Assembly: GCA_003142035.1 (NCBI GenBank)
Contig: PLOF01000074.1
Location: 31,402 to 95,401, forward strand
Length of the DNA: 64,000 nucleotides
Direction: 5' to 3'
Origin: Candidatus Dormiibacterota bacterium
GTDB lineage: Bacteria > Chloroflexota > Dormibacteria > Aeolococcales > Aeolococcaceae
The position numbers and the translations under genes were made by a program. Shown piece after piece: positions 5,705-53,992 of this stretch; the first letter of the stretch is position 1; each line of letters begins with the position of its first letter. Below the pieces are notes generated by a model that saw nothing but the letters and a program-made list of their open reading frames with translations, made no database searches and was not told the DNA's origin.

Positions 5705-5819
5705 GCCGGCACCGCCCATTTCCGGCCAGCTCTGCGTCAGCTCCGGTGCTCGGGCGGTCACGCACATCAGTGCGCTCCCTTCCTGCGCTCCTCGCTTCCT
5801 TGATCTGACCGGCCTGGGC

Positions 5820-15814: not shown

Positions 15815-15840
15815 CGAGGCCGATTGTGACGCGCAGCGCC

Positions 15841-15960
15841 AGCAGGGCGCTGAAGAACATCCACCGATGGAATCCAAGGCCGAGCCCCCGCAGGAGGCGA
15901 CGCACGCATCACCGAGGATGGGGGCGGCAGGACCGTCGGGGGTTCTTCAGCGCCCTGCTA
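15841..15960. repeat. Dispersed inverted-repeat element, copy A
   Basis: Perfect 18-bp terminal inverted repeat AGCAGGGCGCTGAAGAAC / GTTCTTCAGCGCCCTGCT; 80-bp right part matches copy B with 4 differences. Confidence 0.85.
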
Positions 15961-16021
15961 GAGGCGCGCGACCACGGCGACGGCGGCGACCACGGGCCGG
16001 ACGGGTAGGATCACTGCCGCA

Positions 16022-16879
16022 GTGAAACGCGTGCACCTGGTGTGTGACAGCACCGCCGACCTCGGCCTCGCCTACTACCCCGCCCACGACGTGGAGATGG
16101 TCCCGCTCAGCATCATCTTCGGAGAGGAGCAGTACCTCGACCAGGTGGAGATGCCGACCAGGGAGTTCTACCGGCGGATGCGCGCCGGCGGGCCCCACCC
16201 ACAAACCTCCCAGCCATCGCCGGGCGTGTTCGCGGAGGTCTTCGAGCGGCTGGGAAGTGACGGCGCTCCGGTGATCTGCACCACCATCAGCTCCGATTTG
16301 AGCGGTACCGCCGGCTCGGCGATGCAGGCGCGCCAGGCTCTTCCCGACCTCGACATCCGGATCGTCGAAACCAAGTCCTGCGGGCCGGCCCATGGCGCCG
16401 CGCTGGCCATGGCCGCGGCCATCCGCGACCGGGGCGGCAGCGCTGACGCGATCGTGGCCGCCATTGACCGGCTGAAGGCGGCGCAGCACCTCGTGTTCAC
16501 CGTCGAGAACCTCGAGTACCTCCGGCGCGGCGGGCGCATCGGCGCCGCCCGGGCGCTGCTCGGCACCGTCCTCAGCATCAAGCCGATCCTCGCCTTCATC
16601 GACGGCAAGGTGCAGGTCCTCGACCAGGTGCGCACCTATCCCCGGGCCCTGGATCGCGTCGTCCAGGAGCTGGCGTCCACGGTCCGGGAATGGGGCCGGA
16701 CCGTGACCACATTGGCCCACGCCGACAACCGCGAGGGTGCCGAGGAGCTGGCCCGCAAGGTGGCGGCCGTCACCGGGGAGGCCCCGCAGATCGTCGAGGT
16801 CGGCGCCGTGCTCGGCTGCCACGTGGGGCCGGGCGCCTTCGGCCTCTTTTACCATCCGGCCTCGGCGGTGCAGGCGTGA
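16022..16879 (+). CDS. DegV family (fatty-acid binding) protein
   Basis: VHLVCDSTADL; TSQPSPGVFAEVFERL; TISSDLSGTAGSA. Confidence 0.92.
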   Translation: MKRVHLVCDSTADLGLAYYPAHDVEMVPLSIIFGEEQYLDQVEMPTREFYRRMRAGGPHPQTSQPSPGVFAEVFERLGSDGAPVICTTISSDLSGTAGSAMQARQALPDLDIRIVETKSCGPAHGAALAMAAAIRDRGGSADAIVAAIDRLKAAQHLVFTVENLEYLRRGGRIGAARALLGTVLSIKPILAFIDGKVQVLDQVRTYPRALDRVVQELASTVREWGRTVTTLAHADNREGAEELARKVAAVTGEAPQIVEVGAVLGCHVGPGAFGLFYHPASAVQA

Positions 16880-16957
16880 TCGGCACGTGACGCGACTGGA
16901 TAGATCGCTGTACTTTATGCATGGACGGGATGTCAGACAGTTAGGATCGGACCCTCA

Positions 16958-17815
16958 GTGAGCCCGATCCACCTCGTGTGCGACAGCACCGCCGACCTCG
17001 ACGCCGCCTACGCCGCCGCCCACGGGGTCACGGTGGTGCCGCTGCGGGTCTTCTTCGGGGAGGAGGAGTTCCTCGATCAGGTCGAGATGTCCACTGCCGA
17101 GTTCTACCAGCGCATGCGCGCCGGCGGGCCTCACCCCCGGACGTCCCAACCACCCCCCGGCGACTTCGCCGCGGTCTTCTCCCGTCTGGGAGCTGATGGC
17201 GGCACCATCATCTGCACCACCATCTCGGGCGACCTGAGCGGGACGGTCGGCTCGGCGCTCCAGGCGCGCGGCTCCCTCCCCGATCTCGACATCCGGGTGG
17301 TCGACACCCGGTCAGTCGGGCCCGGCCACACCAACGCGGTCGAGGCGGCCGTCGCCGTCCGGGACCGGGGCGGCGAGGCGGACGACATCGTGGCCACCCT
17401 GAACCGGCTGGTGGCCGCGCAGCAGCTCGTCTTCACCGTGGAGACCCTCGAGTACCTCCATCGCGGGGGGCGTATCGGCGGCGCCCAGGCCGTCCTCGGC
17501 ACCGTCCTCGACATCAAGCCCATCCTCGGCATCCACGACGGCAAGATCGACGTGGTCGAACGGGTGCGCACCTACCCGCGGGCGCTGAAGCGCCTGGTGC
17601 AGGAGATGGCGTCCATGGTCCCCGAGTGGGGCCCCACAAAGGCCGCGGTCGCCCACGCCGCCAGCCCCCAGCACGCCCACGCCGTGGCCGCTCAGATCGC
17701 GGCGGTCACCGGTGAGCTGCCCACCATCGTGGAGGTGGGAGCGGTGCTCGGCTGCCACGCCGGACCGGGTGGATTCGGTCTCGCCTTCCACCCGAAGTCC
17801 GTCCTCGACGGCTGA
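16958..17815 (+). CDS. DegV family (fatty-acid binding) protein, tandem paralog
   Basis: IHLVCDSTADLDAAYAAAHGV; TSQPPPGDFAAVFSRL; same length as the preceding gene. Confidence 0.92.
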   Translation: MSPIHLVCDSTADLDAAYAAAHGVTVVPLRVFFGEEEFLDQVEMSTAEFYQRMRAGGPHPRTSQPPPGDFAAVFSRLGADGGTIICTTISGDLSGTVGSALQARGSLPDLDIRVVDTRSVGPGHTNAVEAAVAVRDRGGEADDIVATLNRLVAAQQLVFTVETLEYLHRGGRIGGAQAVLGTVLDIKPILGIHDGKIDVVERVRTYPRALKRLVQEMASMVPEWGPTKAAVAHAASPQHAHAVAAQIAAVTGELPTIVEVGAVLGCHAGPGGFGLAFHPKSVLDG

Positions 17816-20970: not shown

Positions 20971-21747
20971 TCAGGCGAGCGCGGGGGGCATCGGCGGGAG
21001 CAGGGCGACCGTGGCCCCCACCGGGCCCGCATCCTCCCCGGGATTGCGTCCCCAGTAGCGGGAGAAGCGGCCGTCGAAGCCGATCACCCGCCCCCCCTGG
21101 CGCACGTACGGAACGGCCTTCCAGTGCGGGGTGTGGCCATGGACCACGCGCCGGGCGCCGAAGCGGCGCAGATGCGCGTCGAGGCGCTCGCGGTCCTCGA
21201 AGGCTCGCCGCCCGATCAGGTGGCGGAGGAGCACGACCACCCCTCCAGGTTCCTGGCTCAATAGGCCGGTCGCAGCCCGGTTCACCGCCTCGACGCTCTC
21301 ACCCAGGGCGGAGTAGTCGTCATCGTCGGTGTGCTGGACCAGGGTGCCGTCGTCGAGCAGCAGCATGACCGGCAGCCGGCGCAGCCAGGCCTCCATCTCC
21401 ACGTCGCCGGCGAGCGCCTCGAGGTCGGCGGGGTCGCCCCGCCGCCGCCGCCAGACGGACTCCAGCAGCTCGCCGTCACCCGCCCGCAGCCGCTCCCCGC
21501 CGAGACGCCGCTCCTCGATCAGCGCCATCACGAGCAGGTCGTGGTTGCCCAGGATGGCCCGGCTGTGGCGCCGCTCCATGGCGATCCGGGCCGCCTTGAG
21601 GCCACCTGCGTCGCCCGGCCGGCCACCGGTGAAGAAGTCGCCGAGGAAGACGGTCTCCACCTCGTCCTCGGGGAAGGCGGCCAGCGCCACAGAGAGGCGC
21701 TCGTGGTCGCCCTGGACGTCCCCGACGATGAGGACCGGCAGCGTCAT
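20971..21747 (-). CDS. Metallophosphoesterase
   Basis: LIVGDVQGDHERL; FLGDFFTGG; ILGNHD; HGHTPHW motifs; TACCCT 6 nt upstream of the ATG. Confidence 0.88.
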   Translation of the reverse strand: MTLPVLIVGDVQGDHERLSVALAAFPEDEVETVFLGDFFTGGRPGDAGGLKAARIAMERRHSRAILGNHDLLVMALIEERRLGGERLRAGDGELLESVWRRRRGDPADLEALAGDVEMEAWLRRLPVMLLLDDGTLVQHTDDDDYSALGESVEAVNRAATGLLSQEPGGVVVLLRHLIGRRAFEDRERLDAHLRRFGARRVVHGHTPHWKAVPYVRQGGRVIGFDGRFSRYWGRNPGEDAGPVGATVALLPPMPPALA

Positions 21748-21853: not shown

Positions 21854-21877
21854 GTTAAGGACAGCGAAGTCCTTAAC
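21854..21877. repeat. Palindromic hairpin repeat, copy 1
   Basis: GTTAAGGAC-AGCGAA-GTCCTTAAC; same 9-bp arms recur at 63752-63775. Confidence 0.8.
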
Positions 21878-22055
21878 AGGGTGCTGAAGAACCCCCGACG
21901 AGGGATGTCGTTCCCAGACCGGTGAGGCGAAGGAGCCGACGAGGAGGCGAGGGAGCATACCTGCAGGTATTCGACCGAGCCCCCGCAGGAGGCGACGCAC
22001 GCATCGCCGAGGATGGGGGCGGCAGGACCGTCGGGGGTTCTTCCGCACCCTGTTA
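21874..22055. repeat. Dispersed inverted-repeat element, copy B
   Basis: 26-bp terminal inverted repeat TAACAGGGTGCTGAAGAACCCCCGAC with 1 mismatch; core matches copy A; internal 14-bp palindrome ATACCTGCAGGTAT at 21957-21970. Confidence 0.85.
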
Positions 22056-22187
22056 GGGGGTTTGAAGGGTGGGGTGCGTCCCTCGCCTTCCACAAGGTGG
22101 GGATGCCCTCCGGCGGGCACGGAGCCCCGGACGCGGGGGCCGGGGGAGAGCCGACCGATCAGACTGAAGTGACGCCCTCGGTGCGGT

Positions 22188-23639
22188 TCAGCCGGCCAGG
22201 GTGCCGGCCAGCTTGCGGGTGCGGGCGACCGCGGCCGCGGCCCGGGTCAGGGCGCGGCCGACCGTCCGCGGGCCGGGCCCGCCGGGCAGCTCGCGGCGGC
22301 GCAGCGCCGCGTCGACGTCGAAGAGCGCCACGACCTCGCCGTCGAATCGGTCGGAGAGCTGCCGCCACTCCCCGACGCTCAGATCGGCGAGCGTCCTGCG
22401 CTCGGCGACGCAGCGCCGCACCGCGGCGCCCACCAGCGCGTGGGCCTCGCGGAAGGGCATGCCGCGCGCCACCAGGTGCTCGGCGACGTCGGTGGCGAGC
22501 AGCATCGGATCGGATGCGGCGCGGCGCATCGCCGCCACGTCGAAACGGAGCCGGCGGACCACGTCGGCGAGGATGCCGAGCGTCGCCAGGCTCGTGTCCA
22601 CGGCGTCGAAGAGCGGTTCCTTGTCCTCCTGGAGGTCCCGGTTATAGGCGAGCGGCAGCCCCTTGAGGACGGTCAGCAGCGCGACCAGGTCGCCGGTCAC
22701 TCGGCCCACCCGGCCCCGGGCCAGCTCGAGGACGTCGGGATTCTTCTTCTGCGGCATCAGCGAGGAACCGGTGGCGTGGGTGTCGGGCAGCTCGGCGAAA
22801 CCGAACTCCGCGGTGGTCCAGAGCACGATCTCCTCGGCCAGCCGGGAGAGATGGACCATCAGCAGCGCGCAGGTCGAGACCAGCTCCACCACGAAGTCGC
22901 GGTCGGAGACGGCATCGAGGCTGTTGGCGCTGAGCGCCGCGAAGCCGAGCGCGCGCTGGGTGCTGGCGCGGTCGATGGGCAGCGTGGTGCCGGCCAGCGC
23001 CCCGCTGCCGAGCGGCAGCACGTCGCAGCGGCGGTAGCCGTCGCCCAGCCGCTCCGCGTCGCGCTGGAGCATCTCGACGTAGGCCAGCAGGTGGTGGGCG
23101 AGCGAGACGACCTGGGCACGCTGGGTGTGGGTGTACCCGGGCAGCGGGGTGGCCCGGTGCTCGACCGCGCGTCCGAGCAGCGCCTGCTGCAGCCCGGCGC
23201 AGCCGAGCATCAGGTCGACGGTGCGGCGCCGGCACCAGAGGCGCAGATCGGTGGCCACCTGGTCGTTGCGACTGCGACCGGTGTGCAGCCGGCCGGCGAC
23301 CGGTCCGATCAGCTCGTGGAGGCGGCGCTCCACGGCGGCGTGGATGTCCTCGTCGGCCGGGTCGACGGCGAAGTCACCCCGGTCCAGCTCGCGACCCACG
23401 GCGCGCAGGCCGGCGAGGAGGGCGCGGAGGTCACCAGCCGTGATGAGGCCGACCTCGCGGAGCATCCGGGCGTGGGCGATCGACCCCTCGATGTCCTCGG
23501 CGTGGAGCCGGAGGTCGAACCCGAGGCTGCTCGTGTACTCCTCCACCCCCCGGGCGGTGCGGGTCCCCAGCCGCCCCTCCCAGACCTTGGAGGGGGCGCG
23601 CCGTGCCGGCTCGGGGTCCTTGCGCTTGCCCCGCGCCAT
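22188..23639 (-). CDS. argH: Argininosuccinate lyase
   Basis: VWEGRLGTRTARGVEEYTSSLGFD; HTGRSRNDQVATDLRLW; GSSLMPQKKNPDVLE. Confidence 0.96.
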   Translation of the reverse strand: MARGKRKDPEPARRAPSKVWEGRLGTRTARGVEEYTSSLGFDLRLHAEDIEGSIAHARMLREVGLITAGDLRALLAGLRAVGRELDRGDFAVDPADEDIHAAVERRLHELIGPVAGRLHTGRSRNDQVATDLRLWCRRRTVDLMLGCAGLQQALLGRAVEHRATPLPGYTHTQRAQVVSLAHHLLAYVEMLQRDAERLGDGYRRCDVLPLGSGALAGTTLPIDRASTQRALGFAALSANSLDAVSDRDFVVELVSTCALLMVHLSRLAEEIVLWTTAEFGFAELPDTHATGSSLMPQKKNPDVLELARGRVGRVTGDLVALLTVLKGLPLAYNRDLQEDKEPLFDAVDTSLATLGILADVVRRLRFDVAAMRRAASDPMLLATDVAEHLVARGMPFREAHALVGAAVRRCVAERRTLADLSVGEWRQLSDRFDGEVVALFDVDAALRRRELPGGPGPRTVGRALTRAAAAVARTRKLAGTLAG

Positions 23640-53711: not shown

Positions 53712-53911
53712 GGGCCCCCACGCGGCCTGCCGCGGGGGCGAGGGGCCTGCAAAGGCCCCCTGTCAGTCGCCGGGGCCCCCACGCGGTTTGCCGCGAGCGC
53801 GCGCAGCGCGCAGTCATGGCGGGGTGAGGCGAGGCCGGCTTGGCCGGGCCGCCGAGGGGCGGCGAGCCCCTGTGACGGGAGCCGGGGCCCCCACGCGGCC
53901 TGCCGCGTGGG
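53712..53911. repeat. Three copies of a GC palindrome, GGCCCCCACGCGGYYTGCCGCG
   Basis: Copies at about 53712-53734, 53773-53796 and 53883-53911; last copy is a perfect 11-bp stem CCCCACGCGGC-CT-GCCGCGTGGGG. Confidence 0.8.
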
Positions 53912-53919
53912 GAGGAAAG

Positions 53920-53992
53920 TACGCCCGGAGGGACTTGAACCCCCGCTCCCGGCTCCGGAGGCCGGTGCTCTATCCAACTGAGCTACGGGCGC
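53920..53992 (-). tRNA. tRNA-Arg (anticodon CCG)
   Basis: Minus strand GCGCCCGTAGCTCAGTTGGATAGAGCACCGGCCTCCGGAGCCGGGAGCGGGGGTTCAAGTCCCTCCGGGCGTA; full cloverleaf; anticodon loop CT-CCG-GA; no encoded CCA. Confidence 0.95.

Follow-up and report, generated by a model that had tools for sequence, protein, structure and literature searches.

Location and structure of the element

The window, i.e., the whole 64,000-nt stretch of DNA analyzed, belongs to a draft genome (G000) of 2.55 Mb that is about 90% complete. An inverted-repeat element, designated copy B, lies in it between two genes on the minus strand, on the 3′ side of argH and ahead of the start of a phosphoesterase-like gene. The features of this locus and two further copies in the window are as follows.

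5724–5810, minus strand: third copy, of the short class, with unrelated arms (GCCGCCCAGG...GGAAATGGGCGGC); 51 bits, E 6.9e-12
15830–15970, plus strand: copy A, a deletion derivative in which the left core half is missing; 24.5 bits with model R1
20971–21747, minus strand: downstream neighbor, metallophosphoesterase-like ORF, start ATG at 21747, named from its own sequence motifs
21873–21876, no strand: left flanking tetranucleotide TTAA (YTAR target), from the empty-site comparison
21874–21899, plus strand: left arm of copy B, a terminal inverted repeat (TIR) corresponding to IS5-family IS ends
21877–22052, plus strand: copy B, full-length hairpin element without the flanking tetranucleotides; purine-rich "GA" strand, the best-folding one
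21921–22008, plus strand: conserved core of copy B, 88 positions and 26 pairs, from covariance models R1 and R2; 106 bits with R1
21950–21978, plus strand: apical signature AGG-GA-G-[stem-loop]-C-GA-CC-GA with invariant tandem GA mismatches
21957–21970, plus strand: apical stem-loop ATACCTGCAGGTAT, with lineage-variable sequence and retained pairing
22030–22055, plus strand: right arm (TIR) of copy B
22053–22056, no strand: right flanking tetranucleotide TTAG, an imperfect duplicate of the target, from the empty-site comparison
22188–23639, minus strand: argH, upstream neighbor in transcription, stop at 22188

Copy B is 176 bp long and contains no gene, in line with the size of MITEs (<500 bp without a transposase gene). 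Comparison of its arms recovered the 26-bp repeats with one mismatch that a sequence-only reading of this DNA had reported; including the flanks, they comprise 30 nt at 93%. The number of matches to the arm pattern expected from shuffles of the 64-kb window was 0, and the apical signature had 0 matches in 40 shuffles. The 14-bp palindrome seen in the earlier reading was also found; it forms the tip of a hairpin that is conserved and shows covariation. The extent of this hairpin had been underestimated, since the entire 182 nt form one hairpin, and the element had been placed upstream of argH, whereas the stop side of this minus-strand gene faces it and the element is located downstream. A spurious ORF crosses copy B, but covariation and mismatches, not codons, were conserved, and a coding peptide was therefore rejected.

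Other copies in the window and the genome

The right part of copy A was 94% identical to that of copy B over 85 nt. As previously noticed, the right arm of copy A has GTCGGGGGTTCTT and its left arm is without CCCCCGAC. A DNA search of the same genome yielded one more near-complete copy, which an assembly gap interrupts, as well as several shortened copies. The sister species carry single copies that are 97–99% identical to copy B, which indicates that copy B is full length. Three loci (L004, L006, and L045) have lost the apical hairpin, apparently through deletion between short AGGAGGCGA-type repeats that lie on either side of it. The left interior, which had been taken as variable, thus reflects internal deletions, several of them between short direct repeats, and not a swapped module. 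The suggestion of modular evolution did not stand for the left interior and held in another sense, because one conserved core occurs within unrelated arms across lineages. The presence of the TIR in further copies, which had been proposed as a check, was observed in the DNA of the same genome and of relatives.

Several other repeats were noted. Four loci of G000 (L010, L011, L016, and L024) are solo arm remnants of 23–40 bp near gene starts; these remnants end in TGCTAGACT/TGCTAGAGT, resembling an extended −10 promoter, and L010 is present at the same locus in the sister species G006 (L046). At 53712–53907 of the window, a GC-rich repeat (GGGGCCCCCACGCGG..GCCGCG) occurs several times next to a tRNA gene (53920–53992). 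Two 300-nt stretches at 16000–17235, 74% identical and spaced by 936 nt, are probably paralogous adjacent genes.

Empty sites and target sequences

The region downstream of argH was without the element in all six sister species. In G005 and G006, the flanks aligned and revealed a precise empty TTAA site, GTCC-TTAA-CGGGG, corresponding to the filled site GTCC-TTAA-[CAGGGTG...CACCCTG]-TTAG-GGGG of G000; in the remaining four species, the intergenic region was different or too short. The orthologous locus of relatives, which the earlier reading had named as a place to look, therefore did not contain the sequence, and these empty sites ruled out a conserved locus-specific feature. Target-site duplications were TTAA/TTAG at copy B, with one mismatch, and CTAG/CTAG at L039 and L045; at most distant elements, no duplication was visible. 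A clear terminal repeat was present in 97 elements. YTAR adjoined at least one computed end in 34 of these and both ends in 11, compared with at most 6 and 0, respectively, in outward-shifted controls. YTAR was found at neither computed end in the other 63, including the short class (110–136 bp), which matched no known TIR. Copy B is read as a young, full-length non-autonomous mobile element.

Source of the arms

The pattern TAGCAGGGTGNTGAAGAAC was found at contig ends in G028 and beside transposase genes in G024 and G031. A complete IS in G031 has the left end CTAACAGGGTGATGAAAAACCCC and the right end TTCTTCATCACCCTGCTAA, and encodes a transposase of 363 amino acids that matched Pfam DUF772 and DDE_Tnp_1 and the IS5 family model NF033581 of NCBIfam (4.6e-75); its likeness to IS1182 was below the cut-off. 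Two 1.30-kb IS in G028 and one 1.22-kb IS in G058 have the same end type between CTAG tetranucleotides. Six contigs of G028 (C1, C16, C75, C111, C153, and C274) end exactly inside the IS5-type terminal repeat, so that the full IS is collapsed in the assembly and undercounted.

The earlier reading had likened the ends to those of DDE-transposase IS of the IS5/IS1182 type. This idea is supported because the arms of copy B match the ends of full IS in G031 and G028, which have CTAA/CTAG flanks and an IS5-family transposase. Within the genus, no IS with the exact ends of copy B was found. Copy B resembles IS5-family IS (NF033581; DUF772 and DDE_Tnp_1) in its arms and YTAR/CTAG flanks, whereas it lacks a transposase gene and its interior is unrelated to these IS. 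TIRs shared with an autonomous IS were found for the copy B family (G031 and G028), not for all arms, and no IS was identified as the source of the arms in G058.

Arms of other Chloroflexota copies, such as CTAGTGTCCCGGACCGGAGG in L120, resemble the ends of IS630 from the same phylum (CTAGTGTCCTGTACCGGAGATTC in G002), with about 13–16 shared bases, a shorter and weaker match than in the IS5 case. The CTAG-flanked ends of IS630/Tc1-mariner elements (CTAGTGTCC...) resemble the arms of several Chloroflexota copies, but agree with them in the outermost bases alone, and IS630 is not the family of copy B. Where PMC2170065 cites Tenzen and Ohtsubo (1991), the target preference of IS630 is given as TA in CTAG. 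IS630 was ruled out as the origin of the copy B arms, which match IS5-family ends.

Copy B therefore showed every testable feature of a MITE, namely, small size, shared TIRs, a target duplication, and multiple copies together with empty sites. An IS5-family transposase acting in trans may have cut copy B out of its former location and pasted it into TTAA.

Folding and covariation of the core

The plus strand (182 nt) folded into a single imperfect hairpin of −127.1 kcal/mol, compared with −78.3 ± 3.9 for shuffled sequences (z −12.6), and the minus strand folded less well (z −6.4). With DNA energy parameters, the GA strand was not favored (−52.7 versus −49.9) and the GA fold was not reproduced. 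Written in duplex form, the core has the sequence GCGaa-GgaGCCgaCga-GGaGGCgaGGgaG[stem]CgaCCgaGCCcCCgcaGgaGGCgaCgcaCGC, i.e., short Watson-Crick runs between 2×2 GA/GA loops. In distant genera, the arms and apical stems differ and the core is the same; its pairing and mismatches were retained in many lineages and in at least two phyla besides Chloroflexota.

The covariance model R1 was built from eight sequences of relatives, and core conservation was seen in alignments A1, A2, and A4, the last of which is a realignment of 86 loci fitted to the R1 structure. In A4, 24 of the 26 pairs had changes on both sides, with 432 such cells compared with 120 in shuffles and 28–52 in slid controls, and 92.5% of the cells were paired compared with 26–35% in slid controls; because of the way R1 and A4 were made, the paired percentage is inflated, while the count of compensatory changes is hardly affected. 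Pair types in the core alignment were GC (1491), AT (295), and GT (58). The mismatch columns nearest the apex were identical in 85–86 of the 86 loci, so that the tandem GA is near-invariant. Loop 17-18/92-93 was either GA/GA or GC/AA, switching in concert in 77 of 78 distinct sequences (Fisher 3e-21), and pair 18/92 was A.G in 44, C.A in 33, C.G in 1, and A.A in none of them. Both states of this loop were found inside six genomes.

Distribution of the core

A search with R1 yielded matches in 29 of 61 relatives, with at least 72 copies in G058 and 30 in the 1.5 Mb of G010. With the model R2, at least 39 of 301 Chloroflexota genomes matched; 14 candidates per genome were scored, and the counts are lower bounds. 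Named contigs with the same elements were overwhelmingly labeled Chloroflexi/Dormibacterota, and G000 is accordingly taken as a member of Chloroflexota. Outside this phylum, the Lentisphaeria MAGs G336 (2.5 Mb) and G335 had 57 and 10 copies, respectively, a "Deltaproteobacteria" MAG (G337, 3.2 Mb) had at least 143 (143 of the 150 candidates scored), and a MAG labeled Klebsiella pneumoniae (G338; L127 and L186) had 30. The taxon labels were taken from the MAG records, and all genomes are draft MAGs; the Klebsiella label or the binning is probably wrong.

The core was found in 3 of 60 Lentisphaeria genomes and was missing from the other 57, which indicates a patchy distribution and a low false-positive rate. 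The negative controls, Planctomycetia, Phycisphaerae, Acidimicrobiia, Cryobacterium, Streptosporangium (10.8 Mb), and Pengzhenrongella, gave pattern matches and no model match, and one marginal match each was obtained in Halorubrum and one other Deltaproteobacteria genome. Rfam 15 contained no match above the gathering score, and the only hit there, to Tombus_5 (E 2.7), was put down to chance. In plasmids and phages, blastn detected no match to copy B, and three pattern matches in viral contigs were discarded because the covariance model did not support them. No description of the element or the core was found in the open-access papers searched.

Arrays and candidate mobilizers

Head-to-tail arrays consisting of several (5′ arm + core) units followed by one to three 3′ arms were observed in G058 and the Lentisphaerae MAG SIG78. 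The periods were 128 nt in Chloroflexota and 110 nt in Lentisphaerae, and the arrays were located as follows.

L082, 421–1200: tandem array
L083, 900–1570: tandem array
L178, 2330–2990: tandem array

In G337 (L305–L324), the outer arms were copy-specific yet complementary, and may be made by hairpin-templated copying.

The occurrence of possible mobilizing enzymes was compared with that of the elements. DDE_Tnp_1 was present in G010, G058, G055, and G338, and had no match in the draft genomes G336, G337, G374, G317, G199, and G127; DDE_3 was scattered. Since G337 has its numerous copies without DDE_Tnp_1, an IS5-family transposase is not the mobilizer there, unless it is missing from the draft. 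With no DDE_Tnp_1 in several rich genomes, one transposase shared by all arms was rejected. Y1 transposase (PF01797) was absent from G058, G010, G055, G057, G059, and G000. Reverse transcriptase was found in none of G010, G058, G055, G057, G336, G337, G317, G199, and G127; a reverse transcriptase or retron origin, for which the enzyme is absent from most element-rich genomes, is not required. No single enzyme tested accounts for all lineages.

We consider it likely that copy B is a MITE-like element moved in trans via its arms. Its core would be a portable module kept by selection on its folded single strand, either RNA or ssDNA, and would ride on whatever transposon ends it has acquired, IS5-like at copy B and IS630-like in several Chloroflexota copies. 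As a working guess, the fold may be bound by a widespread host factor, aiding the persistence or spread of the element and not the host.

There is a smaller chance that the hairpin itself is the mobile unit, with an enzyme moving the GA-hairpin as ssDNA, complementarity as the sole demand on the arms, and the IS-like ends as secondary acquisitions. Such a mode would suit the arms, which vary among lineages, and in G337 even among copies, while staying complementary, the many copies in the six genomes without DDE_Tnp_1, the strand-specific, invariant mismatches, and the (5′ arm + core) arrays in two phyla. However, the arms of copy B are real IS5-family ends with YTAR flanks, the element-rich Chloroflexota are without Y1 transposase and no candidate enzyme was found, and the GA strand does not stand out by its folding energy as DNA.

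Genomic context and proposed selection on the fold

Of 94 Chloroflexota elements with callable neighbors, few were in divergent, promoter-containing gaps. Between co-directional neighbors, the GA strand was antisense to both in 47 cases and sense in 21 (p 0.002), and copy B was likewise antisense; the genes were called with a crude caller, and the bias was stable at three thresholds and absent in the small samples from G337 and G338. This bias results either from selection against GA hairpins inserted in the mRNA sense or from a strand preference of the insertion process.

These data bear on the idea that the core is a structured RNA with a cellular role, such as a cis-regulatory or 3′-UTR hairpin, a terminator, or a processing site, and is repeated incidentally. 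RNA energies favor the GA strand, Watson-Crick and non-Watson-Crick pairs covary, and the elements are intergenic with few in divergent promoter regions, all in favor of such a role. Nevertheless, we regard it as improbable: the site is empty in all sister species, the distribution in Lentisphaeria is patchy, and the GA strand, being more often antisense than sense, is usually not the mRNA strand, which counts against a 3′-UTR hairpin.

Slightly less probable still is that DNA repair has brought about the compensatory changes as a side effect, one arm being copied onto the other by quasi-palindrome correction without selection on the fold. In G337, the outer arms often pair perfectly and differ from copy to copy, and in L317 perfect pairing has replaced the outer GA/GA mismatch that L311 and L313 retain. 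However, correction of this kind would be expected to remove the tandem GA mismatches, which are instead nearly constant from phylum to phylum, and the concerted exchange of one mismatch for another in loop 17-18/92-93 is not expected of palindrome repair.

A REP/BIME-type element moved by RAYT or an IS200-type Y1 transposase is suggested by the multi-copy, extragenic palindromes and their strand-specific hairpin, but can practically be dismissed, since the present elements are 110–200 bp and not the 20–40 bp with a GTAG or CGTC tag of REP hairpins (PMC3733652), PF01797 is missing from element-rich Chloroflexota, which refutes RAYT/IS200 as the general mobilizer in this phylum, and G053, with eight PF01797 matches, has hardly any element.

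Relation to known systems

Prokaryotic MITEs such as Correia/NEMIS, RUP, QMITE2, and Chunjie are, like the present elements, small, gene-free, and multi-copy, with TIRs and target duplication; their stem-loop transcript and their mobilization by an IS in trans would be further shared features, and RUP/IS630-Spn1 is the model for TIR sharing (PMC10969869, PMC2229807). Known families have been described in single species or small groups of relatives, and their identity is carried by the TIRs (PMC10969869, PMC2229807), whereas here a folded core with constant tandem GA mismatches is common to several phyla and combined with unrelated arms. The core family was set apart from Chunjie (Geobacter), QMITE2, and the rickettsial palindromic elements (RPE) by their descriptions, not by sequence. 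RPE share the length (105–146 bp), the long stem-loop, and the TIRs (PMC2229807); by description, they differ in being from Rickettsia and often within genes, and a cross-phylum core does not appear in that review. REP elements with RAYT are also repeated extragenic hairpins with strand-specific imperfect pairing (PMC3733652), while the present elements are much longer, have no tag tetranucleotide, and occur in rich genomes without Y1 transposase. The attC sites of integrons also form an imperfect hairpin in which one side has unpaired bases, and their recognition as a single strand may be a further likeness; the differences are that no R/L boxes were noticed by eye and that no cassette genes lie between the present copies.

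In summary, the observation of the sequence-only reading was confirmed and its interpretation was partly supported. Whereas the ends normally define a bacterial MITE, in the present elements they vary around a folded core that is retained, and a core conserved across arms and phyla lies outside the MITE concept. Its cross-phylum covariation of Watson-Crick and non-Watson-Crick pairs has the look of functional structured RNAs or recognized ssDNA hairpins. We tentatively propose, as a possibility short of an even chance, a cross-phylum superfamily of mobile structured nucleic acids, in which a GA-mismatch hairpin of about 90 nt would be selected as a folded single strand, exchange its outer arms freely, exceed 100 copies per genome in hosts that have neither IS5-type transposase nor reverse transcriptase, and be moved or maintained by a factor recognizing the fold. 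The core with its GA mismatches, present in up to >100 copies per genome in unrelated phyla and without an Rfam entry, suggests that a kind of mobile structured sequence has been overlooked. R2 provides a searchable model of this core and raises the question of what recognizes the fold, as RNA or as ssDNA.
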